From Muscardinus avellanarius (Eukaryota > Chordata > Mammalia > Rodentia > Gliridae), in contig OY726558.1 in assembly GCA_963383645.1 (NCBI GenBank), positions 181,085,634-181,149,633 on the forward strand: 64,000 nt of DNA, given 5' to 3'. The number at the start of each line of letters is the position of its first letter. Position 1 is the first letter of the stretch. The notes under the pieces were generated by a model. That model was not told the DNA's origin. It was given only the letters and a program-made list of their open reading frames with translations, and did not search any database. Of the stretch, positions 611 to 56,590 are shown in pieces. A program made the translations under genes and the position numbers.

Positions 611-909
611 GGGGTGGCCCAGCCCGCGTCCTGGAAGGCCCGGTGCCAGGAGGGGGGCAGGTGGCCTGGAATGGCCCAGTGCTGGGCAGGAGCCCAAGCC
701 AATGTCCCGGGAGGCCCGGTAAAGAGCAGTAGGCCAAGCCACCGGGCATCCTGAGGAACTCAGCCCGCTGTGCTGCACCCGGGCCGTGGTACACTTCGAA
801 CAGCAGATCCTGCTCTGCGCAGTGAGGCTGTGGGACTCCGTTCTTGGAAGGGAGAAAAAATTCATTGCTGCCAAGTGCCTGATCCCACAACCTCTTCAAA
901 CCACACATA
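611..909 (+). repeat. Composite copy 1: GC-rich 5' domain and linker
   Basis: The first part (611-800) repeats blocks such as 'ggaaggcccggtgcc' and 'gggaggcccgg', suggesting degenerate GC-rich monomers. From about 800 ('acagcagatcctgctctgc') to 909 it matches copy 2 at 41423-41535 closely. The linker then runs into the site where the LTR element inserted. Confidence 0.65.
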
Positions 910-914
910 CTGTC

Positions 915-1236
915 TGATAAGTAAAATAAAAAATTAATGCGAGTAAAATAAAAAATAATGTGAGTACAGCGGAGTTGAAAAACACGAGAGGGGTCTGGTA
1001 CACATGGCATGTAAAGTTTTAATGACACGGCTCTCCTGGAGATCAGGGCGAGGCACCGTGGGGCCCGCGCGCCTGTCCAAATCTTGAGGACGCGGGCTCT
1101 CCTTTTCAAGGTATGCATCTCGCGAGATGGGGGTTTACTCCGGGAACGCCCAATTCTCGCGGGGGTTTCAGCCCCTCCCTTGCCCTGTAGAGGTCATGTG
1201 ACACAAAGTCACATGAGTGCAGGACCCAACTTATCA
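915..1236 (-). repeat. 3' LTR of the non-autonomous element
   Basis: It starts TGATAAGT and ends ACTTATCA. By eye it differs from its partner at roughly 17-18 positions (about 94-95% identity), many of them CpG-type transitions, so the insertion is not recent. It carries an ATTAAA-type poly(A) signal in the minus orientation (TCATTAAAACTTTACATG) and a CTCGCGAG palindrome. Confidence 0.88.
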
Positions 1237-3229
1237 TCCCGGCCTTTTGATGGTAGGGATGACAGATGACGATTGGACCCTCTAACTTCTTCCTGCTGTG
1301 AAGGGGCGTCGTCAGGGGCCCCAGGCCGGGAGGAGTTGGGAGTCCAGTCCCCCAGAAGGGGGTGCAGGTGGGTGTATAGCTGCAGTGCGAATTGGAGGTT
1401 ACCCTGGACAGCTTAGTGATGTGTGCTTGAGGAGGCTTGAACAGGCAAGGGCTATTAAAGAAAAAAACAAATCATGAGATTGAGCAGGCGACCAAAAAGG
1501 AGACTGGCTTACTCACTACCTGGAGAGCTACCCTGAGCTTGCAAGGAGGATGGAGGTTGAGGGATCCAGGAGCTGTCAGTCTTCAGCCAGGCTGAGTAGG
1601 GCCAGCGGCAGGGCCTGGTCTGGAAAGGTGCTCCCCCTGTGTTGAAGCACCTGGGGCTCACCCTTTTCCAAGGGCACTGTTCCAGTGGCCCTCCTGGCCA
1701 CACGCTGGGCACAGTCTGATTGGTGGGCGTGGTTTCGCCCCACTTCAGGCAGGCTCCTGGAGGTAGTCATCGTTGCAGTCCTCCACACCTAGGTGGCGCT
1801 CCAGAGGGCAGAGCTGCCACCGCCAGCCGAAGGGCAGCTACCAGGGATCTGCTTTTTGGCAAAGTCGGAGTGTACGCTCCATCTCTGCCTGTTTCTCTCT
1901 GGAATTAAAACTTTAGATGCCATGTTAAGGTTCTGTCAGCTGCGACGGACCTACACTCACACACAAAGAGCGCCTCCCGGGGCGGGTGTCCGGCGAGAAT
2001 GGCAACACAGACTCCCCACGGGCAGAGGGTGTCGCCTCAGCCTCGGCCTGGCATTTCCCGCAGCACCTAGGGCACGCCCACGCGGGCCGGAAAGGGAGCC
2101 AGAAGCCAAGCACATTTAAGACCTTGCGGAGAGGCCGGGCAGCCGCCCAACAAAATTGTAGTCTGGTGGGGGCCAAGATGGCAACTGTGATGTCACCAGG
2201 CAGCGACTGCGCACCATCACAAAATGGCGGCTGGTGGGAAAATAAATGGCAGCTGATAGGGGAGAGCATTTGGAGGGATACCAGACCACTTAGAAAAGTT
2301 CCTAACTATTCCTGGGCCACCGCAACCCATTTCCCAACTCTTATCAAGGCAGACAGGCTCTCAGGGAATCTGCTAGTATAAAGGTTCAACTTCCCATAAT
2401 TGGTTCGTGGGCGGAAACGAAGAACAGGAAATGGGCGTCCCCAATTTCCCTGCTCAATCATTTGGAAACGGAGGTTAAGAGATAGAGAAGAATGTCTTCA
2501 TCCCTTCTCCAAACCGGAGGATGACCTGGTCATCCGGAGGGTGGTCCCAGTGGACCGGGGGACAATGGGTCACCAAGCGCTTGGATTTTGGGGTCCCAGT
2601 GGACCGGAAGACCCAAGTCCGGAACCCGCTAACCAAGGGAAGGAGGCAGTTTACCGGAGTGAAGTGTTGCCGGCCAGCACTGGCTGTGACAGAAGCACTG
2701 AGAAGCTGCTGGGGGTGCAGTGGAGCTGGGGCGCGTGGATGCCGGTGGCTGGTATGGACAGCACTGGAGGCTGGTGCAGGCAGGATCAAATGGTGGCACG
2801 CAGTCGGCATGGCTTGCCGGGCCTGCGGCGTGGAGACAAAATGGCTTCCAGGCACGCGGCAGATGCTGAGGCTGGGCCCCGAGGAGCACCACAAGTGAGC
2901 CTGGCTTGGGCAGGTGGAACGAAGCAGCAGTAGAGAGTAGAGCTATGCCTGGCACGGGTGGCTGTGGCAGATGCCGAGGCCGACTGTGTGCCGCCCAATG
3001 AGCCTGGCTCTGGGCGGGCAGGGCAAACCGGCCAGAGGTCCCAGCGGTGACTGGAGCGATGAGCTGGAACGGCAGTTTTAGGAGGTCCAAGCAGCAGGCA
3101 GAGGTCCTGGCCCGCGCAGGTGGTCGGCGGGCAGAGCAGGTGCCAGCATCACCCAAGGAGCCTGGCTCAGGGCAGGTGGAACTGGCAGCCTGGTGGCCGG
3201 CGGAGCCTGCATGCCCGCGGCCGCGGTAG

Positions 3230-3480
3230 CAGTGGAAGATGGCCACCAGCACTCCGGAAGATAGCACGTGGGTGGGAAAAGATGGCCATCGGCTCTCAGC
3301 AGAGCGCAGGGCCGGAAAGATGGCCGCGGGCTCTCAACAGAGCTCGGGGCCGGAAAGATGGCCACCTGCTTGCAGCAGAGTGCGGGGCTGAAAAGATGGC
3401 CGCAGACTCTCAGCAGAGCCCTGGGCGGGAAGAAGGCTGCCGGCTCTCCCGGAGAGCGCGGGGCTGGGGAAGAAGGCTTA
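3230..3480 (-). repeat. 38-bp minisatellite with GCCATCTT cores
   Basis: Units of about 38 bp (43 bp for the first step) carry AAGATGGCC near 3236, 3279, 3317, 3355 and 3393, followed by a CTCTCAGCAGAGC-like stem. On the element's own strand the core reads GGCCATCTT, a match to the YY1 consensus. The last units (3420-3480) are diverged. Confidence 0.75.
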
Positions 3481-3670
3481 CGGTCCGGGCAGGCACGGGG
3501 CGGCAGCGGTGGCAGTGGTGGGAGCAAAGCCTGCAAGCGGAGTGCTGGTGTGGGACCTCACAGTCGAGCTGCTGGCAGGTCAGAGAGTCCGGGCCTCAAA
3601 AAGAGAGTAAAAATAAAAAGAGAAAAAAAGAAAAAAACAAAGGGGGGGGGAGGGACCCAAGAGTTCTCCC

Positions 3671-3682
3671 AGTTCGGCACCA
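3671..3682 (-). other. Primer-binding site, tRNA-Phe-like
   Basis: On the minus strand TGGTGCCGAACT begins two bases inside the LTR. The first ten bases match the complement of the tRNA-Phe 3' end (TTCGGCACCA), as in IAP elements. The match breaks down after that, so assignment to tRNA-Phe is likely but not certain. Confidence 0.65.
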
Positions 3683-3684
3683 AA

Positions 3685-4007
3685 TGATAAGTAAAATAAA
3701 AAATTAATGCGAGTAAAATAAAAAATAATGTGAGTACAGCGGAATGTGAAAAACACGAGAGAGGTCCGGTACACATGGCATGTAAAGTTTTAATGACACG
3801 GCTATCCCGGGGATCAGGGTGAGGCACCATGGGGCCCGCACGCCTGTCCAAAGCTTGAGGACGCAGGCTCTCCTTTTCAAGGTATGCATCTCGCGAGATG
3901 GGGGTTTACTCCGGGAACGCCCAATTCTCCCGGGGGCTTCAGTCCCTCCCTTTCCCTGCAGAGGTCATGTGACACAAAGTCACATGAGTGCAGGACCCAA
4001 CTTATCA
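3685..4007 (-). repeat. 5' LTR of the non-autonomous element
   Basis: This is the promoter-bearing LTR of the minus-strand element. Visible regulatory-type features are CATCTCGCGAGATG (about 3890-3903), a paired inverted repeat TCATGTGAC...GTCACATGA (about 3965-3988), and an ATTAAA poly(A) signal. Transcription starts and factor binding are not demonstrated. Confidence 0.87.
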
Positions 4008-4064
4008 CTGTCTTTTTTTACTTAAAAAAAAAAAGAAAAGAAAAAAGAAAAAATATTAGTGAAG

Positions 4065-4945
4065 GGGTCAAGATGGCCGCTGCGGCAGCCAGGATTCTGG
4101 AGATTCTGACAAAACAAAGCCAACTGACCTGTAACTTTTGGAAAAATTCCCCATGAAGGGGGACTGCTTCTTCCTTACATGCTGAAGAATTCTGTACATC
4201 ATCTGTAAGGAGGGAGCTCAGTGGAGAACTAGGAGGAAGGCGGTGGCGGCAGCAGCGGCTGAGGTGGCGGTGGAGGCTAGTACTTAGGAGAGGCAGAGAT
4301 CTGATCCAACCCACCCTGATCTTCTGAAGAAATTGCTCCAAAAGTGGAATGCTACCGTCGCACATGCTCAGGAATACTGGACGACATGCAGTGTGGGAAA
4401 GGAGTTTGGGAAAGAATTGAGATGGTGGATGCAGTGGCAATGGCAATGGCCAGAATTCAGGAGAGGCAGAGATCTGATGCAAGACACCTGGATCTTTTGA
4501 AGAAATAGTCCCATAGGTAGAAAGATACCATCGCACATGCTTGGGAAATTGGGACAACATGCTGTGTCAAGAGGGTGCTTGGAAGAGAACTGAGATGGCT
4601 GTGACAGCGGCAGCAGTGGTTAGCATTTGGTAGAGGCAGAGATTCAATCCAATCCACATCATAATTTAAAAAAAAATCCTCAAAGCTATACCACTAATGA
4701 CACACATGCTTGGGAATTCTGGAAAACAAACTGTGTGGGAAGGGTGTTAGGGAGAGAACCAAGACGGCAGTGTCAGCAGTGGTGGTGGTGGTGACCAAAG
4801 ATTGGAGAGGCAGTCAGATCCAGTCCAGTCCACCTTGAACTTCTGAGGAAATCTCCCCAAAAGTAGACTGCTCCTCACACACATGATCGGGATTTCTGGA
4901 CAACATGCTAAGTGGTAAAAGGGTTTGGGTGGTTTCAGAGGGAGC
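4065..4945 (+). repeat. Composite copy 1: ~170-bp monomer array
   Basis: About five tandem units. The landmark 'gcagag(atctgat)' recurs at 4293, 4466, 4636 and 4810, a period of 170-174 bp. Each unit also carries a 'gaactgagatggc...cagcggcagc' block, a 'cttctgaagaaattgctccaaaagt' block and a 'cacatgcttgggaattctgg' block. The first unit has CAAGATGGCCGC, a YY1-type core. The arrangement resembles L1 5'-UTR monomer promoters of mouse, although no sequence homology to them is claimed. Confidence 0.75.
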
Positions 4946-5194
4946 CCTGCATGGTCGGGGTGGGCTGCCACACTGCGGGTTCTGGGAGTCATCAGCCCTC
5001 ATGGCCACAAAGCTCCTCGCGCAGAGTGGGAGGCTAGGGTATGTATGGAGCAGCAGAGTCTACTCTCTGGAGTGAAGGTGTGGACCTCTGCCTTTGGAGG
5101 GAGGACAAAATTTTATGGTCACTTGGTATCTGGGGTCCCAACTTTCGCAAACGACATGTACTGCTCCCTAATATTAAAAAAAAAAATCAAAAAA

Positions 5195-5420
5195 AGCCGG
5201 ACGTGGTGACATATACTTGTAATCCCCTCGATTGGGAGGCGGAGACAGGAGGATTGTGCAGGGGCTCGAGGCCAGCCTTGCTGGCTTGAGAGATCCTGTT
5301 TCCAAATAAAAATATATATAGTAAAAAAAAAAAAAAAAAAAAAAAAAAGGAGGTCCCCGGGAGTAAAGCCCGGAGGTGGAAGGGTTTCCAGGAACCCCAG
5401 TACCAGCAAAAAAAAAAGTG
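5195..5420 (+). mobile_element. B1-dID SINE, short subfamily, expanded internal A-run
   Basis: The left half is B1-like (gccggacgtggtgac...) and the right half ID-like (agtaaagcccggaggtgg... ccccagtacc). The linker between the halves has grown into about 26 consecutive A (5323-5348), which is unusual because poly(A) normally sits only at the 3' end. It is followed by a short (GT)n and a G-run. It is nested in composite copy 1. Confidence 0.88.
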
Positions 5421-5485
5421 TGTGTGTGTGTAGGGGGGGGGGGCATCTCTAGACAACCTGATCATAGTGGCAGAGAACAGAGCCC

Positions 5486-6240
5486 AATGTACAGCAAGAC
5501 AGCAAGGCCAGAGGCGGGGCCTCGGAGTCCAGGATAGGAGTCTTCTGGGCAGCTAAGCCAGTGCCGGGGCTAGTGAGGCTGGGATCGGAGCCTGCCATGA
5601 GGCAAGGCCTGTGTTGGGGCCTCCGAGGCTGGGATCTGAGCTTGCCAAGGGGTGAGCCCAGTGATATGGCCAGCGAGGCAGAGATCAGGGCCTACAGCAA
5701 GGCAAGGCCAGTGCTGCAGCCTCCGAGGCCAGGATTGGAGTCTGCCAAGGGGTGAGGCTGGTGTCGAGGCCAGTGAGGCCAGGATCAGCCTGCCATGAGG
5801 CAAGACCATTGCTGGGACCTCTGAGGCAGAGATAGAGCCTGCCGAGGGGTGAGGTTGGTGCCAAGGCCAGTGAGGCTAGGATCAAAGTCTGCCATGAGGC
5901 GAGGCTGGTGCCGGGCCTTGGAGGCTTAAATCGGAGCCTGCTGAAGAGGGAGGCCGGTGCTGGGGCCTAGGAGGATGAGATCGGAGCCTGCCATGCATCG
6001 AGGCTGGTACTGGGTCAGCAAGGCCAGGATTGGTGCCTGCCATTTGGTGAGGCCATAGCTGATGCTAGCGAGGCCAAGATAGGAGCTAGCCTAAAGACAA
6101 GGCTGGTGCTGAGGCCTCCGAGGCTGGGATCGGAGCCTGCCAGGAGACAAGGCCGGTACTGGAGTTAGTGAGGCCAGGAGCAGAGTCTACTGGGTGGCCA
6201 GGCTGGTGCCAGGGCCTTCAAGAGTGGGATTGGAACTTGC
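5486..6240 (+). repeat. Composite copy 1: GC-rich VNTR, ~50-bp units
   Basis: By length there are about 15 units. They alternate between a 'gcctgccatgaggcaaggc...ggggcctc' type and a 'cctgccaaggggtgaggc...ggccagc' type, giving a dimeric period of about 100 bp. Reading frames across it are repeat artefacts. Confidence 0.8.
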
Positions 6241-6625
6241 AAAGCTGCATACACAAAGAAATATCACAGAAAAAAAAAAAAATCGGATGCTTTCCCTAAT
6301 ATGCAAAACTAGGAAGAAATGGGTAATAGGAGGGAATCTAATGGAAGAAGGGGCATTTGGAGGAGCAATTAAGGTGACCAATCAAAGGGGATGGGATGGG
6401 GGAAGATGGAATCTCTTTAAAGCACATGATGTACGTAAATAAATATATCAATATTAAACACTAAATCAAGCATGGGATTGAGGGACGGGGAGAGAGTGAA
6501 ATGGGAATTGGATAAAGGTTTATTGGATGATGCGTACTTGGATATCCTAACAAGTCTTGTATTCCATTGTGATGTTTGACTACAATGCACCAATAAAAAT
6601 ATATTAAAAAAATAAAAAAATAAAA
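6241..6625 (+). repeat. Composite copy 1: L1-type 3' UTR and tail
   Basis: The block 'ccctaatatgcaaaactagg', the G-rich 'gatgggatgggggagg' and the end 'gactacaatgcaccaataaaaa' align with plain L1 3' ends elsewhere in the window (for example 31095-31503 and 56201-56590). An A-rich tail follows. Confidence 0.8.
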
Positions 6626-9098: not shown

Positions 9099-9111
9099 AT
9101 TTTAGCACTTA

Positions 9112-9295
9112 TTTTGGTGGTACTGGGGTTCCTGGAAGCCCTTTTACCTCCAGGCTACACTCCCAGACCTATATTTTACAGTTTTATTTGGAAACAGGGT
9201 CTCTTAAGCCAGCGCTGCTGGCTTTGAACCTATGCGATCCTCCTGTCTTGCCTCCCAAGCGCAGGGATTACAAGCGTGCGCCACCACGCCCGCCT
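9112..9295 (-). mobile_element. B1-dID SINE, short subfamily, with TSD
   Basis: A well-preserved copy reading GGTGGTACTGGGGTTCCTGG on the plus strand, bounded by the 12-bp duplication ATTTTAGCACTT (9099-9110 and 9296-9307). Confidence 0.93.
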
Positions 9296-9309
9296 ATTTT
9301 AGCACTTTT

Positions 9310-12224: not shown

Positions 12225-12980
12225 ATACTTTGCCTAACCTGACAAAATATTACATCTAACAAAGCAATCTGAAAGTAACACTAAGTAATTATACAGACAC
12301 ACACAATTACACTATCTCCATTGTATATGGAACTGAAATACATAATTCCCTGTCCATTGATCCATACACTTACATTCTGTGTATTTCATTCTATGCAAAT
12401 TTTACCTTAAAAATAGAATGAAAATGAGTGTTGCAATCTAGTTGTTGCAGATGTATATAATATCAATTCTTAGGGGATCTCCTCTATTCATTATTTTCCT
12501 GCTTATACTGAGAATGGAAAAAAAAATCCCTTTCTTATCTTGAATATACAGACATAGAAATATGGAAAAGGTAGTCACAAATATTAAAAGGTGAATGATT
12601 ATCATAAGTCCTGGAGGGTTGGATTGTAATTGGGCCTGGCATGAAAACATGTGTTTTATAATATATAGCACATATATATTACCTTTTCCATGTTTGTATG
12701 TGTCTGTTCATCCAAGATGAGAAAGTGGCTCCGCTATTCATTCTCATTCTCACTGCAAACAAGAAAATAATGATCTAGAGAAGATCCCCTATGAATTGGT
12801 ATTATACACATCTGCAAAAACTAGACTGGAACAGTTGTTTTCATTCTAGTTTGAAGGTAAAATTTACATAGAATGAAATGCAAAAAAATTAAATGTACAG
12901 ATCAATAGATCAGAATTATTAGTGTAATTTTGTCTGTATTGTTACTTACTTTTAGTTTAAGTTGCCTTATTTTGTGTGTA
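12225..12980. repeat. Long imperfect inverted repeat
   Basis: The left arm (about 12225-12580) and right arm (about 12678-12980) are reverse complements with moderate divergence. Paired blocks include AATAATGA...GATCCCCTA.GAATT...ACATCTGCA and GGTAAAATTT.CATAGAATGAAAT, and towards the loop TACCTTTTCCAT. The loop is about 100 bp. Either one element was duplicated in inverted orientation or two copies of an unrecognised repeat landed head to head. Confidence 0.7.
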
Positions 12981-37359: not shown

Positions 37360-38100
37360 GTAGGCACTTGGAATTGAGACCAAGGACATTCTACCTCCTA
37401 GCTACACCCCCAACTCTATTTTATTTTATGAAATTTTATTTTTAAGGTTTGAAACATGGTGCGATTAAGTTGCAGTGGGCCTCACTAAGTTGCTGAGGTT
37501 GGTTATAAATATAATTCTCTTGTCTTAGCCTCTTAAGTAAAGGGATTAAAAACATATACCCCTTTCCTCCTAGTTTTTGCTAATTAGGGAAAGCATCTGA
37601 TTTTTATTTTCTGTGCTATTTTTCTGTGCATGCTGCATTGCAAGTTCTGATCCCACTCTTGATGGCCCCAGGAGTGGCCTGGCCACCCGGAGGACTCTGA
37701 TCCCGACCTTGCTGGCTCCAGCATTGGCCTTGACACATGGGAGGCCCCAATCCTGGCCTCGCTGGCCCCTGCACTGGCCTAACCCCTCGGCTGGCTCGAG
37801 TTGTAGAAAGGGCCCTATAGAGAAGCAATTAAGGTAACCAATCAGAGGGTATGGAATGGGGGAGGATGGAACCTAGTAAAAACTCAGGAGGTATGTAAAC
37901 AAATGTATCAAAGATAATCACCAATCAAGCATGGGATCGAGGTAGGGGGAAGGAATGGGATGGAGATTGGATGAGGGCTAATTGGATGATGTGTGCTTGT
38001 ATATCTTCTCAAGTCTCGTATTCCAATGTAATATATGATTACAATGCACCAATAAAAATATTTTAAAAAACCCAAAAACATACACCCCCATACCTGACTC
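37360..38100 (-). mobile_element. B1-dID SINE split by composite copy 4
   Basis: The left piece 37360-37562 and the right piece 38074-38100 ('catacacccccatacctgac') join into one antisense SINE. The split point is the target of composite copy 4. Confidence 0.8.
37563..38073 (+). mobile_element. Composite VNTR retroelement, copy 4 (twin-primed)
   Basis: 37563-37796 is antisense (start of the L1-type 3' UTR plus about four VNTR units) and 37803-38073 is sense (rest of the 3' UTR and tail). About 20 bp is lost at the switch. Flanks AAAAACATATACCCC (37548-37562) and AAAAACATACACCCC (38074-38088) are a 15-bp target duplication with one mismatch. This is a 5'-inverted, truncated insertion typical of L1 machinery. 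Confidence 0.85.
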
Positions 38101-40789: not shown

Positions 40790-41312
40790 GCAACTGAAGG
40801 AATAGAACAAATTAACTGAGACAAGGAAACAGTTGAAGACTTTAGAGAGAAATGTCAAGATTTCAGTTTTGGACATTTAGGTTTTAATGTATGGTAGATG
40901 TCAAAATGGTGCATTAAAATAATTAGACATGTGAGTCTGAAATTGATAGAATAATTCCAGTTAGAGATAAAAATCTGAATGTCAGAATAATGTAAATGTA
41001 AATTATAATCATTAGGTCAAATGAGATCACAAATAAAAAGCATGTGGTGAGGCTGAATCTAGGTCAGTTGATAATTAGAAAATCAGGATGTAAGAGAGAG
41101 TTCATCAAAGGAGACAGAAAAGAAACAAGTAAAGTAGAAGAATAAAGGAGTTGGCTGAGGGAAACAAGGAGGAAATTATGAGTGCATCTATAGAGGAGTG
41201 CCTGATTCCATGAACTGTGGCTCATAGTCAAGTAAATTAAGGACTGAAAAGATCAGCTTCTGTAGTTATTTTTGGGAAGGCCATCCATGACACTGGGCTT
41301 AGAAGAAAATTA
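40790..41312. other. Unique A/G-rich intergenic stretch
   Basis: No gene, no recognised repeat. It flanks the insertion site of composite copy 2. Confidence 0.5.
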
Positions 41313-41621
41313 AAAAGATCATATTGGAGGGGAGCAGCCCTACCTGCTCCCAGGAAGGCCCAGTGCTGGGCTGAGGGCAGGCGGCCCTACCCGCTCCCGG
41401 GAAGGGGCCATGATGTGCTTAGAACAGCAGATCCTGCTCTGCACTGTGAGGCTGTGGGACTCCGCTCTTAAAGGGGAGAAAAAATTCATTGCTACCGAGT
41501 GCCTGATCTCACAACCTTTTTAAACTACACATACTGTCTTCTCTTATTCAAAACAAAACAAAACAAAAAGAAAAGAAAAGAAAAAAGTAAAAAAGAAAAA
41601 AAGATAAAGAAAAAAAAATAT

Positions 41622-42137
41622 TGGAGAGGGGTCAAGATAGCCGTGGCATCAGCCAGGATTCTGGAGATGCAGACAAAACTTACCTGGAACTTTTGGAAAA
41701 ATTTCTCATGAATGGGGAACTGCATCTTTCCTACATGTGTAAGAATCCTGGACATCTTCTGAAAGGAGGGAGCTCAGCTGAGACCTAGGAGGAAGGCGGT
41801 GTTGGCAGTGGCAGCTGCGGTAGTGGTGGAGGCTTGTATTTGAGAGAGGCAGAGATCTGATCCAACCCACCCTGATCTTCTGAAGAAATTGCCCTAAAAG
41901 TGGAATGCTACCATTGCGCATGCTCAGGAATACTGGACAACATGCAGTGTAGGAAAGGAGTTTGTGAAAGAATTGAGATGGTGGAGGCAGTGGCAATGCA
42001 GCAGCCAGTACTTAGGAGAAGCAGAGATCTGATGCAACACATCTGGATCTTTTGAAGAAATAATGCCAGAGGCAGAATGCTACCAACACACATGCTTGGG
42101 AACTTGGGAAAACATGCTCTGTGAAGAGGGTGCTCAG
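41622..42137 (+). repeat. Composite copy 2: ~171-bp monomer array
   Basis: The landmark GCAGAGATCTGAT recurs at 41849 and 42020 (period 171). The first unit has CAAGATAGCC, a mutated YY1-like core. Confidence 0.75.
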
Positions 42138-42890
42138 ATTGAAGTCTGCCAAGAGGTGAGGCCAGTGCTGGGGACAGCGAGGCTGGGATCGGAACCTGCT
42201 GTGAGGCAAGGCCAGTGCAGGGGCCTCCAAGGCCAGGACCCGAGCCTGCCTAGGGGTTAGGCTGGTGCCAGGGCCAGCGAGGTTGGGATTGGGGCCTACC
42301 ATGAGGCAAGGCAGGAGCTGGGGCCTCTGAGGCCAGAATCGGAGCTTGCTCAGGGGTGAGGCCAGTGCCAGGGCCAGCCTGGTTAGAATCCAGGCCTGCC
42401 ATGAGGCAAGGTTGTTTCTGGGGCCTTGGAGGCTGGGAACAGAGCCTGCCAAGGGGTGAAGCCATTGCTGGGGCCACTGAGGCTGGGGTTGGAGCCTGCA
42501 ATGAAGCAAGGCCGGTGCTGGGGCTTCCTAGGCTAGGATCAGAGCCTGCTGAGGGGTTAGGCCTGTGCCGGGACCAGTGAGGCGGGGATCAGACCCTGCC
42601 GTGAGGCTAGGCTGATACTGGGGCCTCTGAGATCAGAGCCTGCCGAGGGGTTAGGCCAGTGTCAGGGCCAGTGAGGCTGGGATCGGAGCCTGCCATGAGG
42701 CAAGGCTGGTGCTGGGGCCTTCGAGGCCGGGATCTGAGCCTGTTGAGGGGTTAGGCCAGTGCCGGGGCCAGCGAGGCCGGGATTGGGTCTTGCCATGAGG
42801 CATGGCCGGTGCTGGAGCCAGAGAGGCTGGGATCAGAGTTCCCTGGGTGGCCAGGCCAGTGCCGGGACCATCAAGAGTGTGATCGGAACT
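42138..42890 (+). repeat. Composite copy 2: GC-rich VNTR, alternating unit types
   Basis: About 15 units of about 50 bp in near-regular alternation: type one contains 'gccatgaggcaaggc...ctggggcctc', type two 'gccgaggggttaggc...ccggggccagc'. Confidence 0.82.
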
Positions 42891-43249
42891 TGAAATGCGG
42901 CATACACAGAGAAATATTACAGAAAATAAAAAACTAGATGTTTTCTCTAATATGCAAAAACTAGGAAGAAATAGGTAATAGGAGGAGATCTAGTTAAAGA
43001 AAGGGCCCTATAAAAAGCAATTAAGGTGACCAATCAGAGGGAATGGGATGGGGGAGGATGGAATCTCTTTAAAATTCATGATGTATGTAAACAAATGTAT
43101 CAAAGTTAATCATCAATCAAGCATGGGATCGAGGAAGGAGGAGGGAATGGGATGGGATTGGATAAAGGCTAATTGGATGATGTATGCTTGTATATCCTCA
43201 CAAGTCTTATATTACATTGTGATGTATGACTACAATGCACCAATAAAAA

Positions 43250-43294
43250 TATATATATATATTAAAAGTTCATATTGGGAGAAAATATTTTAAA

Positions 43295-43330
<36 letters not shown>
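43250..43330. repeat. (TA)n around the composite tail
   Basis: TA runs at 43250-43262 (element tail) and 43299-43326 (flank). Confidence 0.85.
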
Positions 43331-43423
43331 TATATTCATACATATAAATATATATGATGTGTAAATGCACATTTATATACCGTTTAGAATTATATATGTA
43401 TATATACATTTATATACTCACTA

Positions 43424-49128: not shown

Positions 49129-49685
49129 TTTTTTTAGCTTGGTAAATCTTTTTTTTAATATTTTATTGGTGCATTATATTCATACATCCTATTGGGGTAA
49201 AAAAAACTTGTGTGTACATACATGTACACATCACCAATTTAACCCCTACCCAATTCTCACCCCATTCCCTCCCCATCCCTCCTTCCCTTGCTTGGCTTAG
49301 TGGTTGACTTTGATATGTTTAAGTACACTGCGTGTTTTAGAGAATTTCCTTCTTCCCCCCTCCCATCCCCTCATTTAGTTTGTCTTCTTTGCTCCTCTAT
49401 AGGATTTCCTTTTTCATCTAGAGTTCCTCCTATGACCTATTTCTCCTGAGCTTTCACATATTAGGGAAAGCATCTGATTTCTTATTTTTTGTGACTGAAT
49501 AATCTCACTTAGCATAATGTCCTCCAGTTCTATTCATTTCACTGAAAATTATGTAATTGAGTATTTTTTAATGGCTGAGTAAAATTCCATTGTGTCCATA
49601 TCCCACAGTTTTGTAATCCATTCATCTGTTGATGGACATCTTGGCTGGTTCCATAGTTAGGGTCGGGCCTGACTAGTACTTGGAT
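49129..49685 (-). mobile_element. L1 3' end with antisense 5S rRNA fragment at its 5' junction
   Basis: An antisense L1 3' UTR ('ttttattggtgcattatattcatac' ... 'gatggacatcttggctggttccata') ends at 49658 and is followed by a 5S rRNA fragment, then by the target duplication: GGGAAGGGAATCTTT (49114-49128) versus GGGAAGGGAATTTTT (49686-49700). The 5S piece therefore lies inside the insertion. Confidence 0.8.
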
Positions 49686-49689
49686 GGGA
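49659..49689 (+). pseudogene. 5S rRNA fragment (~31 nt)
   Basis: GGGTCGGGCCTGACTAGTAC and then TTGGATGGGA match roughly nucleotides 58-88 of vertebrate 5S rRNA, with two differences (usual form CCTGGTTAGTAC). It includes part of the internal control region but is far too short to function. Sense strand is plus, opposite to the L1 it is joined to. Its last four bases overlap the target duplication. Confidence 0.8.
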
Positions 49690-49914
49690 AGGGAATTTTT
49701 GAAGGCTAAACTTCAAATACTACTATGTCTATAAAAGAAGGTATCATCAGGATCTCACTATCTTTTTGGAGAGTGGGGGATGGGAAGCAGGGTGGGATCT
49801 GGAGGGAAACACATCAAGTGCTGTGTACATGTATGTTTTCCACATTTTAAACCTCAATATGATGTGTAATATAATGCACCAATGAAAGTATAATAAAACA
49901 AAGCTACTGTGTGA

Positions 49915-52510
49915 ATCCGCTGTCTTCTCTACATAGCCTACATACTCCCACTCCAGCTTCTGATCACTGGTTTGTCTAATCCGTCCTTTCTTTTGTCTTT
50001 TTATTGCACTTGCCTCAGAACGTGAGACTGGCATGGAGCTCATTTTCTCACCCACATAATTGCTCTTCCTGTCTCCATTCATTCTCTTCCCACCCTTCCT
50101 CACAAATACCACACTTTTCTACTGGAACATGCTTATAAATACGCTGTGAATAATTAAAACCTTTCTTTCCCTTGGCCATAAGGCTACATTTTCAACAGCA
50201 TACTCCTAGACCTAACTGATCAGGACTTCATTTACAGTGTGATGGTATTTTACAAGCTTATTTTTTAATATACATTACACTAAACCCCTGCTCCGATCAA
50301 GCTACCTTTTTTTTTACATTTATTCAGATAAAAATAATCCCCCCAAAATAAATACATGAGATAAGCAGCCAATTTTTCTCTAGACAGTTTTTCATCTGAA
50401 ATATGCAGAAGCAAAGAGCCTGAAGAGTTCCTCATTTGTGGAAAAAAAGTTGAGAATCCATGGAAATAATGCAGAAAGAAGAGAACAGTCTACAGAAAAA
50501 TAATCCAGATATGCAGAAATACCTACTAGAATATTTAACATTGTCTGGGAAGGAAATACTTTAGGTTAGAGGAATAAAAAAACATTTTTAACACTCATAC
50601 CTAATTTTCACCAGCCCGGGAGTAAAATTCCTAAATCTAGAAATTGCATAGATTAATCAAAAGAGTCTTGCTGTGGTAGTGAGGTAAATATAAACCTAGA
50701 CTAAAGGTAAACTCCTCCTACTTAACCAATTTTTAGTACGTGACCTGAAAAGATTAAAAAAATAAATAAATAAAACAAGCAATTTGCCTCTGACTCAAAA
50801 TAAAGTTCAAGACTATTTATAAACTTGCAAAAATACTTAGCACACAATAAGTAAAATCGACAAGTTACAGCATACAAGCAAAATTAACATATATATTAAG
50901 AAGCAGTAAATAATGATGCTTAATGTGAAATATCAATCAAACCCTAAAGAAACTACTATAAATATTAGAATTATCAAATAAAGCAAATATACTCAGAAAA
51001 AGAATGTAAACATATGAGTGTTATTCAAATGTTTAACACAGACTGAAATGGCATTAAAATAGAAGTGACTGAGTTAAAATATATACTGAAATGTACTAAC
51101 AGAAAATAGATATACAAGAAAGATTAATACATTTAAAAACATATCAATAGAAATGACCTAAAGTGATGCAAAGAAAAATATTTACAAAATAAAGATAATA
51201 TCAAGGTACTATAGCAGGTGTCAGGTGATCTAATATCTTCTTAGTTGGACATTTCAAAGGAGAATAAAATATAAGTTAATAATATTAAAAAAAAACAATG
51301 CTCTAAAAAAAACAGTTCTCAAAGATTTCCAATGTGATTAAAACCGTTAAGCTGCTGGTCTGAGAAGCTCAACAAAATCAAAGTAGAAAAAACATGAATT
51401 ATATATCACAAGTCACATCACATTCAAATGTCTTAAAACCGGGAAAGGAGAAAACTTCAAGCATTAGAACAAAAATATAATGTTATTTTTAAGGAATATA
51501 AGTCAAGACCATAGTTGATTTCTCACTAGAAAAATGCAACACAGAAGGCAGTGCAGTAACATCTTTAAAATACTGAAGAAAAATAAGTAACACAAACAAA
51601 AAGAAATTGTCAACCTATAAATCAATACACAGTAAAATGTCAAAAACAAAGAAAAACAATTATTATATATGTAAAAGCTCAACAAAATAACAATACTTAC
51701 CTACCATTTAAAATGTTTTAGTTTACCCTATGTATCTATTTACATTTAAAGTGGGTTTTTTGAAGAAAGGAAATATTTGTATTTCTTCTATAATATAATA
51801 GTATGTATCATTTGGATTTTTTAAAAAATTGTGGTAAGGTATAGGTAAAAGTAAGGTGACTGTTTTATGATTAGATTTAAATCTACTAATTAAGTAACTT
51901 TTAATATTTTACTTGGTTATTGTACATTCTTTCTTTTTTGATTTATTAACTTTTTATTTTACTTAACCAGTAAAGTAGCTTAATAGTTACCTCTAAATGT
52001 CTTATATTTTTATACTAAGATAAAAATAGTCATTTATAGTTACCTCTAAATATCTTATATTTTTATACTAAGATAAAAAATAGTCATTTTTTGTCATTTA
52101 ACAATCTATTTAGTTTTTAACCTATGTATATCATATGTGTGGTTTGGAAAATGTAAATGACTCCAAATATCTCAAAGAGAAAGACAACATTGTCATGCAT
52201 CAGGGTCACTGCCGTTCAAATTTTTAAAATATTGATTTAGTTATTTTGCTGGTTATATTAATATATCTAGGTGCATTAAAATTATTTTATTAAATATGTT
52301 ATTTGCAATTTTTAATATTTCTATTAACCATAGAAAAATTTGGATAAATGAAGATTTATCTTTAACTCTCCAATTTCTTCTCTTTTCATAATGTTGTTTT
52401 ATCTCATTGTTCTTAGATTGTCTGGTGAACAGTGAAATATTTAACAGTGGATGAATAAACCTGTATTACTAGTTCTACACAGTGTACTCCCCAAGCCCCT
52501 CCATGTGTCT
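49915..52510. other. AT-rich intergenic stretch
   Basis: No domain-bearing ORF; the 121-codon minus frame at 49747-50112 starts outside and ends in L1 3' UTR sequence. A two-copy tandem duplication lies at 51982-52087. Confidence 0.5.
51982..52087. repeat. Two-copy ~53-bp tandem duplication
   Basis: 'atagttacctctaaat.tctt' through 'actaagataaaa.atagtcattt' is present twice in tandem with about two differences, so it is a recent duplication. Confidence 0.9.
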
Positions 52511-52977: not shown

Positions 52978-53419
52978 GTCTTAGTACTTTTAATGTCACT
53001 CTCAGGTTAATCATTTTATTATTTGCTTTATGTTATAGTTAACATGTAGTAAAAGTACAATTATTTAATTTGTATTTATTATAAATGTTCCCTATATTTT
53101 TACTTTGAAAAACAAATAAGCATGGTGATGCAGAATTTTTTTTATTGGTGCATTGTAATCATACATAACATTGGAATACAAGACTTGAGAGGCTATACAA
53201 GCACAGATCATCCAAATAGCCCTCATCCATTCCCCATCCCATTCCCTCCCCCTCCCTCCATCCCATGCTTGATTGTTGATTATCTTTGATACATGTGTTT
53301 ACATACCTCCTGGGTTTTAAAGAAGTTCCATTCTCCCCCATCCCATACCCTCTGATTGGTCACTAGGTTTTGCTAATTAGGGGAAGCATCTGGTTTTTAT
53401 TTTCTGTGTTATTTCTCTG

Positions 53420-54145
53420 TGCATGCCTCATTGCAAGTTCTGATCCCACTCTTGATGGCCCCAGTAATGGCCTGGCCACCTGGAAGACTCTGATCCCAAC
53501 TTCACTGGCTCCAGCACTGGCCTTGCCTCAAGGGAGGCCCTGATTTTGGCCTCACTGGCCCCCACACCGGCCTAACCCATTGACAGACTCCCATCCTGGC
53601 CTTGGAGGCCCCAGCACCAGCCTTGCCTCACGGCAGGCTCCAATCCCAGCCTCGCTGGCCCCAGCACTGGCCTAAACCCTAGGCAAGCTCCAATCCCAGC
53701 CTCGGAGGCCCCAGCACCGGCCTTTCCTCATGGCAGGCTCCGTTCCCAGCCTTGCTAGCCCCAACGCCAGCCTAACCCCTCCTCAGGCTCCAATCCCAGC
53801 CTCAGAGGCCCCAGCACTAGCCTTGCCTCATGGCAGGCTTTGATCCCAACCTCGCTGGCCCCAGCACCTGCCTAACCACTCAGCAGGCTCCGATCCCAGC
53901 CTTGGAGGTACCAGCACTGGCTTTGCTTCATGGCAGGCTCCAATCGCGGCCTCACTGGCACTGGCTTGGCCTAACCCCTCAGCAGGCTCTGATCCCAGCC
54001 TCGGAGACCCCAGCACCAGCCTTGCCTCACGGCAGGCTTTTATCCTGGTCTTGCTGGCACCAGCACTGTCCCTGCCTCACAGCAGGCTCCAATCCCAGCT
54101 TTGCTGTCCCAGTCACCAGCCTTACCCCTTGGCAGGCTCCGATCT
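53420..54145 (-). repeat. Composite copy 3: GC-rich VNTR, alternating unit types
   Basis: About 14-15 units of about 50 bp, the same two alternating unit types as copies 1 and 2, read in antisense here. Confidence 0.82.
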
Positions 54146-54769
54146 GAGCACCCTCTTCACCCAGCAAGTTGTCCCATGTTCCCGAGGGTGCGTAGTGGTA
54201 GCATTTTGCCTCTGGGGTTATTTCTTCAAAAGTTCCAGGTGTAATGCGTCAGCTCTCTGTGTCCCCTGAGTACTGGCTGCTGCCCTTGCCCCTGCCTCCA
54301 CCATTTCAAATCTTTCCCAAGCTCTTTTTCCACTCTGCATGTTGCGCAGTTTTCCTAAGCATGTGAGATGGCAACATTTGATGTTTGGGGTAATTTCTCC
54401 AGAAGATAAGGTTGGTAGGATCAGATTTCTGCCTCTCTCAAATACAAGTCTCTACCACCATTGCTGCGACCGCTTCCAACACTGCCTTCCTCCTAGGTCT
54501 CCGCTAAACTCTCTCCTTAGAGGTGATGTCCAGGATTCTTAAGGATGTAGAGAAGAAGCAGTCCTCCTTCACGGAGAATTTTTTTCCCAAAAGTTCCAGT
54601 TCAATTGGATAAGTTTTGTCTGCATCTCCAGTATCCTGCCAGCTGCCTCAGCTATCTTGACCCCTCTCTGATATTTTTCTTTTATCTTTTTTTTTTTTTT
54701 TAACAAGAGAAGACAGTATGTGTGGTTTGAGGAGGTTGTGGGATCAGGCACTTGGTAGCACTGCAGCCC

Positions 54770-54991
54770 AGGCCCCGGTTCTTCTGGGGGACCAGCATTC
54801 CCCGTGCAACCCTTGCCTGGGGCCCAGGATCCTGCAGCCCGGGCCCAGTTCTTCCAGGTGTCCGGCGTGCCTTGCACGACCCCGCCAGTGGCCCAGGGTC
54901 CTGCGGCCCGGGCCCCGGTTTTTTCGTGGGTCCAGCGTGCCCCACACGACCCCGCCTGGGGCACAGGGTCCTGCGATCCGGGCCCTGGTTC
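54770..54991 (-). repeat. Composite copy 3: distinct 5' GC-rich monomers (~70 bp)
   Basis: Three full units and one partial, each starting GAA.AAC..GGGCC and containing GCAGGACCCTG and GGGGTCGTG-like blocks. They do not resemble the 5' repeats of copies 1 and 2, although the following linker is the same. Confidence 0.8.
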
Positions 54992-55009
54992 TGGTGATGC
55001 AGAATTTTG

Positions 55010-55219: not shown

Positions 55220-56200
55220 ATTTCTGTCTGTATTGTCAACTATTCCTCCAATAGAGGACTAATATCTAGAATATACAGAGAACTCAAAAAACGCAGTGCT
55301 AAGAAAACAAATACCCAAACAAAAATTGGCAGGTGAACTAAATAGACACTACACAAAAGAAAAAATTCAAATGGCCAATAAATGCATGAAAAAATGATCA
55401 ATATCATTAGCAATCAGAGAGATGCAAATCAAAATTACCTGAGACTTTACCTAACTCCAACTAGAATGGAAATTATCCAAAACACAAACAACAACAAATG
55501 ATGGCTAGGATGTGAAGTGGGAACACTAGTACATTGTTGCTGGAGTTCAATTAGTTCAAACACTTTGAAAAATAATATGGAGGATCCTCAGAAGAATGGG
55601 AATGAACCTACAATATGATCCAGCAATACCACTTCTGTGTATCCACCCAAAAGAATAAAAACCAAACTATCAAACTAATGCATAATATCTATATTCATAG
55701 CTGCACAATTCACAATTGACAAACTATGAAACCAGCTAAGATGTCCATCAACAAATGAATGGATCACAAAATTACGGGATATGTAAACAATGGAATTTTA
55801 CTCAGTCATTAAAAAATTATGTCATTTACAGGGAAATGAATGGAACTGGAGAACATTATGCCAAGTTACTCTCACAAAAAGTAAGAAATCAGATGCACTC
55901 CCACATATATGCAAGCTAGGGAGAAAAAGAGTTATAGGAGGAACTCTAGACAAAGGAGAAGAAAACACAGATGAGCAAATAAGGAGGCCTAACTAGAGGT
56001 TATGGGAGAAAAAAAGAGGGAAAATTCCCAAATGTATATGATGTACATTCACACAAATATCATTCAATCACTAAGCCAAACATGTGAAAGAGGAAGAGGG
56101 AAATAAATAAGGTGGGAATTGGAGAAGGGCTAATTAAGTGATGTGTGTACGTATGCTTCTACCATCTTGTACTCTATTAATATGACTACAACGTACCAAT
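55220..56200 (+). mobile_element. L1 ORF2 C-terminal end and 3' UTR
   Basis: 'aggactaatatctagaatatacagagaactc', 'atgatccagcaataccacttctg', 'atgtccatcaacaaatgaatggatc', 'atgaatggaactggagaacattatgcc', ending 'gactacaacgtaccaata'. All frames broken. Confidence 0.87.
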
Positions 56201-56590
56201 ATAACTGGAGGACATCATGCTAAGTGAGATTAGTCAGTCACAAAAAATAAGAAATCGAATGTTCTCCCTAATATGCGGGAGCTAGGGAGAAAATGGGTCA
56301 TAGGAGGACCTCTAGACAAAAAGAAAATACTTTAGATGAGCAAATAAGGTGACCTAACATTGGGGATGGGAAGGAGGAAGAGGGAAATTCTCTAATGCAC
56401 ATGATGTTCTTTAACAAACATAACAATGTCAATCACTAAGCCAAACATAATAAAGAGGGGAGGAGAGAATATGGTGGGAATTGTGTAAAGGCTAACTAGG
56501 TGATAAGTGCATGTATGTCTCCACCATCTTTTACCCCATTAAGATGTATGACTACAATTCACCAATAAAAATTAAAAATATATATAAAAT
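56201..56590 (+). mobile_element. Second, tandem L1 3' UTR
   Basis: Begins 'actggaggacatcatgctaagtgag' directly after the end of the previous L1 and repeats its 3' UTR to 'gactacaattcaccaataaaaa'. The poly(A) of the first copy is absent at the junction. Confidence 0.85.

Follow-up and report, generated by a model that had tools for sequence, protein, structure and literature searches.

The window, a 64,000-nucleotide stretch of the Muscardinus avellanarius genome, contains copies of a repeat family that is very probably a non-coding, non-autonomous composite retrotransposon with multiple subfamilies. From 5′ to 3′, its modules are GC-rich tandem repeats, a linker (LINK), an internal A-tract, monomers of about 170 bp (MON), a VNTR, and the tail of L1 ORF2 followed by an L1 3′UTR. 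A second linker and a SINE are optional modules between the monomers and the VNTR. Fixed junctions, target site duplications (TSDs), A-rich tails and a family history of its own support the original prediction of a non-autonomous, VNTR-bearing element with the hallmarks of L1 insertion.

Architecture of the copies in the window

The copy at 41328–43263 (forward strand) is a complete insertion and belongs to subfamily II. Its 5′ TSD, AAAAGATCATATTGG (41313–41327), differs at one position from the 3′ copy, AAAAGTTCATATTGG (43264–43278). Between them lie GC-rich 5′ repeats with a unit of ~47 bp (GC5a, 41328–41404), a 136-bp linker common to the copy at 611–6625 and to loci fetched from the genome (41405–41540), an internal A-rich tract (41547–41625), and about 500 bp of monomers in ~170-bp units (41628–42134). 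These are followed by a GC-rich VNTR of ~770 bp with a period of 50/100 bp and conserved first and last units (42135–42910). The 3′ module starts with the last ~17 codons of L1 ORF2 and the stop (42911–42964; EISQKIKNQMLSLICKN* in the consensus), which are altered in this copy, one change being itself a stop, and continues with an L1-type 3′UTR, an AATAAA and an A/T-rich tail (42965–43263). A known RNA family as the source of parts of this copy was rejected, the only Rfam-type matches being two below threshold.

A second complete insertion, at 53140–54991, lies on the reverse strand. It is flanked by a perfect 17-mer, AAAATTCTGCATCACCA, the 3′ TSD (53123–53139) being identical at 17/17 bases to the 5′ TSD (54992–55008). 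Its GC-rich 5′ repeats are of another type, with a 70-bp unit (GC70, 54761–54991), and are followed by a shortened linker, of which only the end is retained, with an A-rich tract (54680–54763), a more diverged variant of the monomers (54147–54660), the VNTR (53422–54146), and an ORF2 tail and L1 3′UTR with an internal deletion of about 62 bp (53140–53421). The boundaries given earlier for both copies proved exact to the base, with TSDs abutting each of them.

Four copies in the window had been said to share one order of parts. This holds for the two complete insertions and for 611–6625, which belongs to another subfamily, but not for 37563–38073, which is truncated and inverted. The 3′ part had been described as an L1 3′UTR; the 3′UTR is present, but the module also holds the last ~17 codons of ORF2. 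The absence of coding capacity was confirmed with an ORF1 probe and with ORF2 probes that covered the N-terminal 334 residues and the last 165 but not the middle: at the composite loci scanned (all except L080 and L081) matches lay only in the flanks, with none at L077–L079, and just ~17 ORF2 codons are kept. The probe for ORF1-only elements is weak, as its reading is one base out of frame.

Among the copies measured, VNTR length ranges from 176 to 5,685 bp. Arrays of subfamily II have a period of 50/100 bp and, where measured, a GC content of 0.62–0.68, and units of ~50 bp pair up as 100-bp dimers. By reading, the aligned junction rows show that the first and last units are conserved.

Elsewhere in the window lie a 578-bp near-palindrome with 72.5% identity to its own reverse complement (12342–12919) and a 53-bp tandem duplication with 96% matches (51983–52089).

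Subfamilies

Subfamily I comprises the window copy 611–6625 and loci L077–L079, and is characterised by extended monomers, a second linker (LINK2), an A-tract, a SINE at a fixed place (4/4 copies), a spacer and the VNTR. The window copy, on the forward strand, consists of GC-rich 5′ repeats and linker (611–914), an internal A-rich tract (4008–4055), an extended monomer array (4062–4929), LINK2, which is ~65% identical to LINK and ends in an A-tract (4930–5165), the embedded SINE, of the same family as 9109–9309 (5172–5417), the VNTR (5470–6251), and the ORF2 tail, L1 3′UTR and A-rich tail (6252–6625). The copy is split between linker and A-tract by an LTR element (915–4007) with LTRs of 322 and 323 bp that are 94.7% identical and run TG...CA, a 5-bp duplication (CTGTC), and a GC-rich interior containing a 38-bp tandem repeat.

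A 35-mer from the subfamily-I spacer occurs 399 times in the genome. At least 16 of the 40 best matches to the upstream part of subfamily I have this spacer 252–454 bp downstream, a lower bound taken from the positions of 100 listed spacer matches out of the 399; the distance leaves room for the SINE. Part of a window SINE of this family (9192–9294) weakly resembles SRP RNA, scoring 30.4 bits (E 1.6e-6), which falls short of the Rfam cut-off of 70, and the SINE of L078 gave no Rfam match. The weakly 7SL-like SINE is monomeric and, with B1/ID-type SINEs, would point to a squirrel-like rodent. Variants of the spacer (ATAGTGACAGAGACCAGAGCC...) recur, for example at C2:76285513, and may mark a further composite subfamily.

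Subfamily II contains 41328–43263 and most of the fetched loci. Its monomers join the VNTR directly, with GGA shared at the joint as judged by reading. The aligned copies, a set selected for good matching, diverge from the consensus at non-CpG positions by a median of 3.6% in MON and 3.7% in the tail. At L024 the 70-bp and 47-bp repeats occur in series. In subfamily III (L080 and L081), ~105-bp GC repeats stand directly before the A-tract, followed by monomers, VNTR and tail; no linker was found in either locus, and their monomers are further from the MON 35-mer described below than are other monomers. The three subfamilies differ in their 5′ modules, so that these modules turn over while the VNTR and tail stay.

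Fixed junctions and genome-wide counts

Patterns were counted over the whole 2.5-Gb genome, allowing up to three mismatches and using the reversed patterns as controls. An internal 30-mer of the L1 tail occurred 8,753 times, a 35-base pattern across the junction of VNTR and L1 tail 8,411 times, and a pattern across the junction of MON and VNTR 3,425 times; each reversed control gave 0. On known composite loci the tail pattern recovered 26/29 and the VNTR–tail pattern 24/29, and the MON–VNTR pattern recovered 22 of 23 (19/20 full copies and all three others that reach the monomers). None of the three matched any of four L1 3′ ends. The tail and VNTR–tail counts, which are nearly equal but not paired locus by locus, would fit a type of tail that is seldom present unless a VNTR accompanies it. 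Contrary to expectation, a MON 35-mer was rarer than the MON–VNTR junction, with 816 occurrences in the genome. There is no large excess outside composites of the monomer variant that this 35-mer represents; diverged monomers escape it. Two exact patterns gave 0 matches each against viral contigs.

Individual loci show the same arrangement. All 20 of the best matches after the query copy (L019–L038) have its part order, a shared layout that is partly by construction. In nine loci for which the L1 tail was the sole criterion of choice (L010–L018, the query copy being set aside), the VNTR lies directly upstream in every case. Three of these reach the monomers within the fetched stretch, five stop within the VNTR, and at L012 the VNTR fills the stretch. 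The aligned copies, whose rows include duplicate fetches of loci, keep the two internal junctions in register; the exceptions are the interrupted row of L030 and, at the MON–VNTR junction, the subfamily-I copy of the window. The alignment of tails omits L028, L032, L035 and L037, that of MON omits 611–6625, and that of LINK omits L025, L028 and 53140–54991.

Relation to L1

The consensus of the 3′ module starts with the ORF2 end EISQKIKNQMLSLICKN and a stop; the L1 fragment L076 has EISQSQEIRNQMLSLICES. Because the module begins with the last ~17 ORF2 codons, the VNTR precedes the stop of ORF2, and the reading of the VNTR as a repeat of the L1 3′UTR was rejected on this ground. The L1 module of the composites is ~76% identical to the L1 3′ ends of L076 and of window 49161–49494. 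At three 3′ ends of the lineage of the young L1 L058, similarity of the 3′UTR to the composite tail is confined to the region around the ORF2 end. It had been proposed to check whether L1s of the species carry the same VNTR: four L1 3′ ends were examined, and the VNTR is absent from all three of the L058 lineage and from L076, whose 3′UTR is related (76%). The CACCAATAAAAAT-type 3′ end common to the composites points to an L1 lineage other than the youngest one in the genome.

Several L1 3′ ends had further features. The ORF2 reading of L076 skips a stretch before the C-terminal part, which may be a deletion in one copy or mark a shortened family. Of 40 matches to window 49150–49800, the remaining 39 cover about the last 510 bases only, where the window copy seems truncated. 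At window 55844–56590, an L1 3′ end contains a 366-bp 3′UTR region twice in tandem, with about 75% identity.

At the 5′ side, 38,950 L1 ORF1-family candidates were found, and many of the 150 that were scored have open ORF1 frames of 329 codons. MON, LINK and the GC repeats were found at none of 30 ORF1 loci for which ~1 kb upstream of ORF1 was fetched. Twenty-six of the 30, L058 included, align to L058 from within the 5′UTR onward at 93–100%, and the 5′UTR of L058 matches neither MON nor LINK nor the tail significantly. The remaining four are L039, which is 5′-truncated, and the ORF1-only loci L043, L045 and L052. At L039 the VNTR and tail stand beside ORF1, and we read this locus as a young 5′-truncated L1 inserted into a composite tail.

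By reading, MON has a CAAGATGGC-type start and is built of tandem ~170-bp units. Tandem monomers with such starts resemble the monomers of rodent L1s, and those of mouse, in the L1 5′UTR, are tandem GC-rich promoter units of ~200 bp. MON is like the mouse monomers in being tandem, but unlike them it is attached to ORF1 at 0/30 loci. The monomers are possibly derived from an old L1 5′UTR. Taken further, this likeness and the continuous L1 3′ end that forms the 3′ module would fit a single founder, in which GC repeats, linker, monomers and VNTR together were the 5′UTR of an extinct or unsampled L1 and one deletion extended to ~17 codons before the ORF2 stop. We consider such an origin unlikely. 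The ~1 kb upstream of the 30 ORF1 loci lacks MON, LINK and GC repeats, both in L1s that are 93–96% identical to the young L1 and in the three ORF1-only loci, the MON 35-mer is rarer than the MON–VNTR junction (816 against 3,425), and the 5′ modules vary by subfamily, one of which holds a SINE.

Insertion hallmarks

A composite assembled from separate modules and spread by retroposition is the reading we prefer, and the borders of individual copies bear on how they were inserted. The copy at 37563–38073 is flanked by 15-bp duplications with one mismatch, AAAAACATATACCCC (37548–37562) and AAAAACATACACCCC (38074–38088). Its 5′ part, which holds VNTR and the beginning of the L1 module, is inverted (37563–37797, reverse strand), and its 3′ part, with L1 3′UTR and tail, is direct (37796–38073, forward strand). 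It is a 5′-truncated twin-priming product, with the inversion that L1 would leave.

With a low-complexity filter, a TSD score of at least 12 was obtained for 9 of 23 copies, compared with 2 of 184 mispaired controls. The other 14 copies, among them 611–6625, for which no firm TSD was found, have no duplication scoring at least 12 under the filter. The filter dropped a 15-bp duplication of L029, and the truncated copy 37563–38073 was outside the 23. Further TSDs were found by reading at that twin-primed copy, at L080 and at L081, the last with a short SINE-like stretch between tail and duplication. Eight of the nine scored TSDs have, by eye, at least three A in their first five bases, as expected of L1 endonuclease sites. 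Target-primed reverse transcription by L1 also fits the A-rich tails, the copies cut short inside the VNTR and the twin-primed copy. A satellite or a product of segmental duplication would spread together with its flanks instead of by retroposition, and the prominent tandem repeats and three copies within 0.2 Mb on C21 (at 10.66, 10.73 and 10.83 Mb) could be taken in that sense; it is nevertheless very improbable in view of the TSDs at the borders, the A-rich tails, the 5′ truncation within the VNTR, the twin-primed inversion, and the spread of the listed matches over 19 contigs.

Comparison with known elements

The retroposed composite was compared with the VNTR-bearing elements of hominoids. 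SVA, LAVA, PVA and FVA are described as hominoid-specific elements that have in common a GC-rich VNTR and a 5′ domain of CT repeats and Alu-like sequence (PMC4432496); SVA and LAVA are described elsewhere in the same terms (PMC7353768). In passages of a third source the name 'SVA-like variants' is applied to human and non-human primates only, and SVA is put at roughly 2,700 copies per human genome (PMC4982230). As in the published description of SVA, the family is a non-coding composite with a GC-rich VNTR of 30–50 bp units, TSDs and subfamilies (PMC4432496), and its L1-type insertion parallels the mobilisation of SVA by L1 stated there (PMC4432496). Conserved units at both ends of the VNTR in SVA and LAVA, as found here, and an L1 fragment within the 3′ part of LAVA are also reported (PMC4432496); the L1 fragment of the composite extends as far as the L1 3′ end and provides the tail. 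The features of a hominoid composite found in the family are thus the GC-rich VNTR, the absence of coding sequence by probes, and TSDs with an A-rich tail.

The ends of the element differ from those of SVA. Neither a SINE-R nor a (TCTCCC)n/Alu-like 5′ region was seen, the 5′ part being GC repeats and monomers and the tail an L1 3′ end. The pairing of VNTR units as 100-bp dimers is a further difference from SVA. In place of a 5′ CT hexamer and Alu-like region, the 5′ ends consist of 47-, 70- or ~105-bp GC repeats, most with the linker, and there was no SRP-type match at E ≤ 1 in 41200–43400. The CT-repeat/Alu-like 5′ domain common to LAVA, PVA and FVA was likewise not found in the composite. 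The best reading is that the composite is analogous to SVA and LAVA but lacks their defining 5′ domain, and hence it is not filed as a member. No rodent SVA-like element appears in the titles and abstract openings of the literature matches listed, a scope that leaves aside subscription journals and repeat databases.

As regards L1 itself, the composites have the L1 3′ end, and neither ORF1 nor, with partial probes, ORF2 was found. HAL1 keeps ORF1. The composite is, like HAL1, derived from L1 and non-autonomous, and its L1 tail is of the same type; unlike HAL1, composites have no ORF1 match inside them, and the retention of ORF1 with loss of ORF2 is not seen. HAL1-like, ORF1-only derivatives of L1 do occur in the genome, at L043, L045 and L052, where the open frames around ORF1 have 306, 299 and 180 codons. 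In these a composite-type L1 tail follows the ORF1 domain at a distance of no more than about 1.2 kb, which leaves no room for an ORF2, and L043 is flanked by a short direct repeat near AAAAACACTTTT.

That the parts are the UTRs of a normal L1 family minus ORF1 and ORF2 had been offered as the alternative; in its simple form, many independent internal deletions of L1s whose UTRs carry the composite segments, it has next to no probability and was rejected on the shared junctions, for although both end parts resemble UTR material, the compared copies have the same two internal junctions, the VNTR is 5′ of the ORF2 stop, the L1s examined lack the 5′ modules and the VNTR, and young L1s have a different 5′UTR and 3′UTR.

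Discussion

The following course of events would account for the structure of the composite retrotransposon. Its RNA would start in the GC-rich 5′ repeats, most likely as an RNA polymerase II transcript, and would be polyadenylated at the L1-derived AATAAA. To judge from the insertion hallmarks, L1 proteins would copy this RNA in trans by target-primed reverse transcription. Modules may have been fused or swapped during retroposition or read-through, because several of them end in A-tracts, and the length of the VNTR would shift by slippage or recombination. Activity appears fairly recent but perhaps not current, because the copies that best match the consensus reach 97% (MON) and 98.9% (tail); no copy identical to the consensus was found.

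These composites number several thousand and probably arose separately from the ape SVA elements. Independent evolution is suggested by the differing 5′ and 3′ parts, the distinction from SVA being drawn from published descriptions. It seems likely that VNTR composites arose independently in a rodent lineage. On this view the family grew to more than 8,000 copies, its subfamilies, at least three in number, traded 5′ modules, one of them took up a 7SL-type SINE, and an L1 3′ end served as the tail.

A second, unrelated origin of VNTR composites would be a natural replicate for the role of the VNTR in L1-driven retroposition and silencing. The replicate could show which features are convergent, among them the GC-rich array, with its units of ~50 bp and fixed units at either end, the repetitive GC-rich 5′ end, and modules that can be exchanged. 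As L1s with open ORF1 frames are present in the same genome, dependence on L1 is open to experiment. Such convergence, if true, would point to the GC-rich VNTR itself as a feature that favours retroposition by L1.
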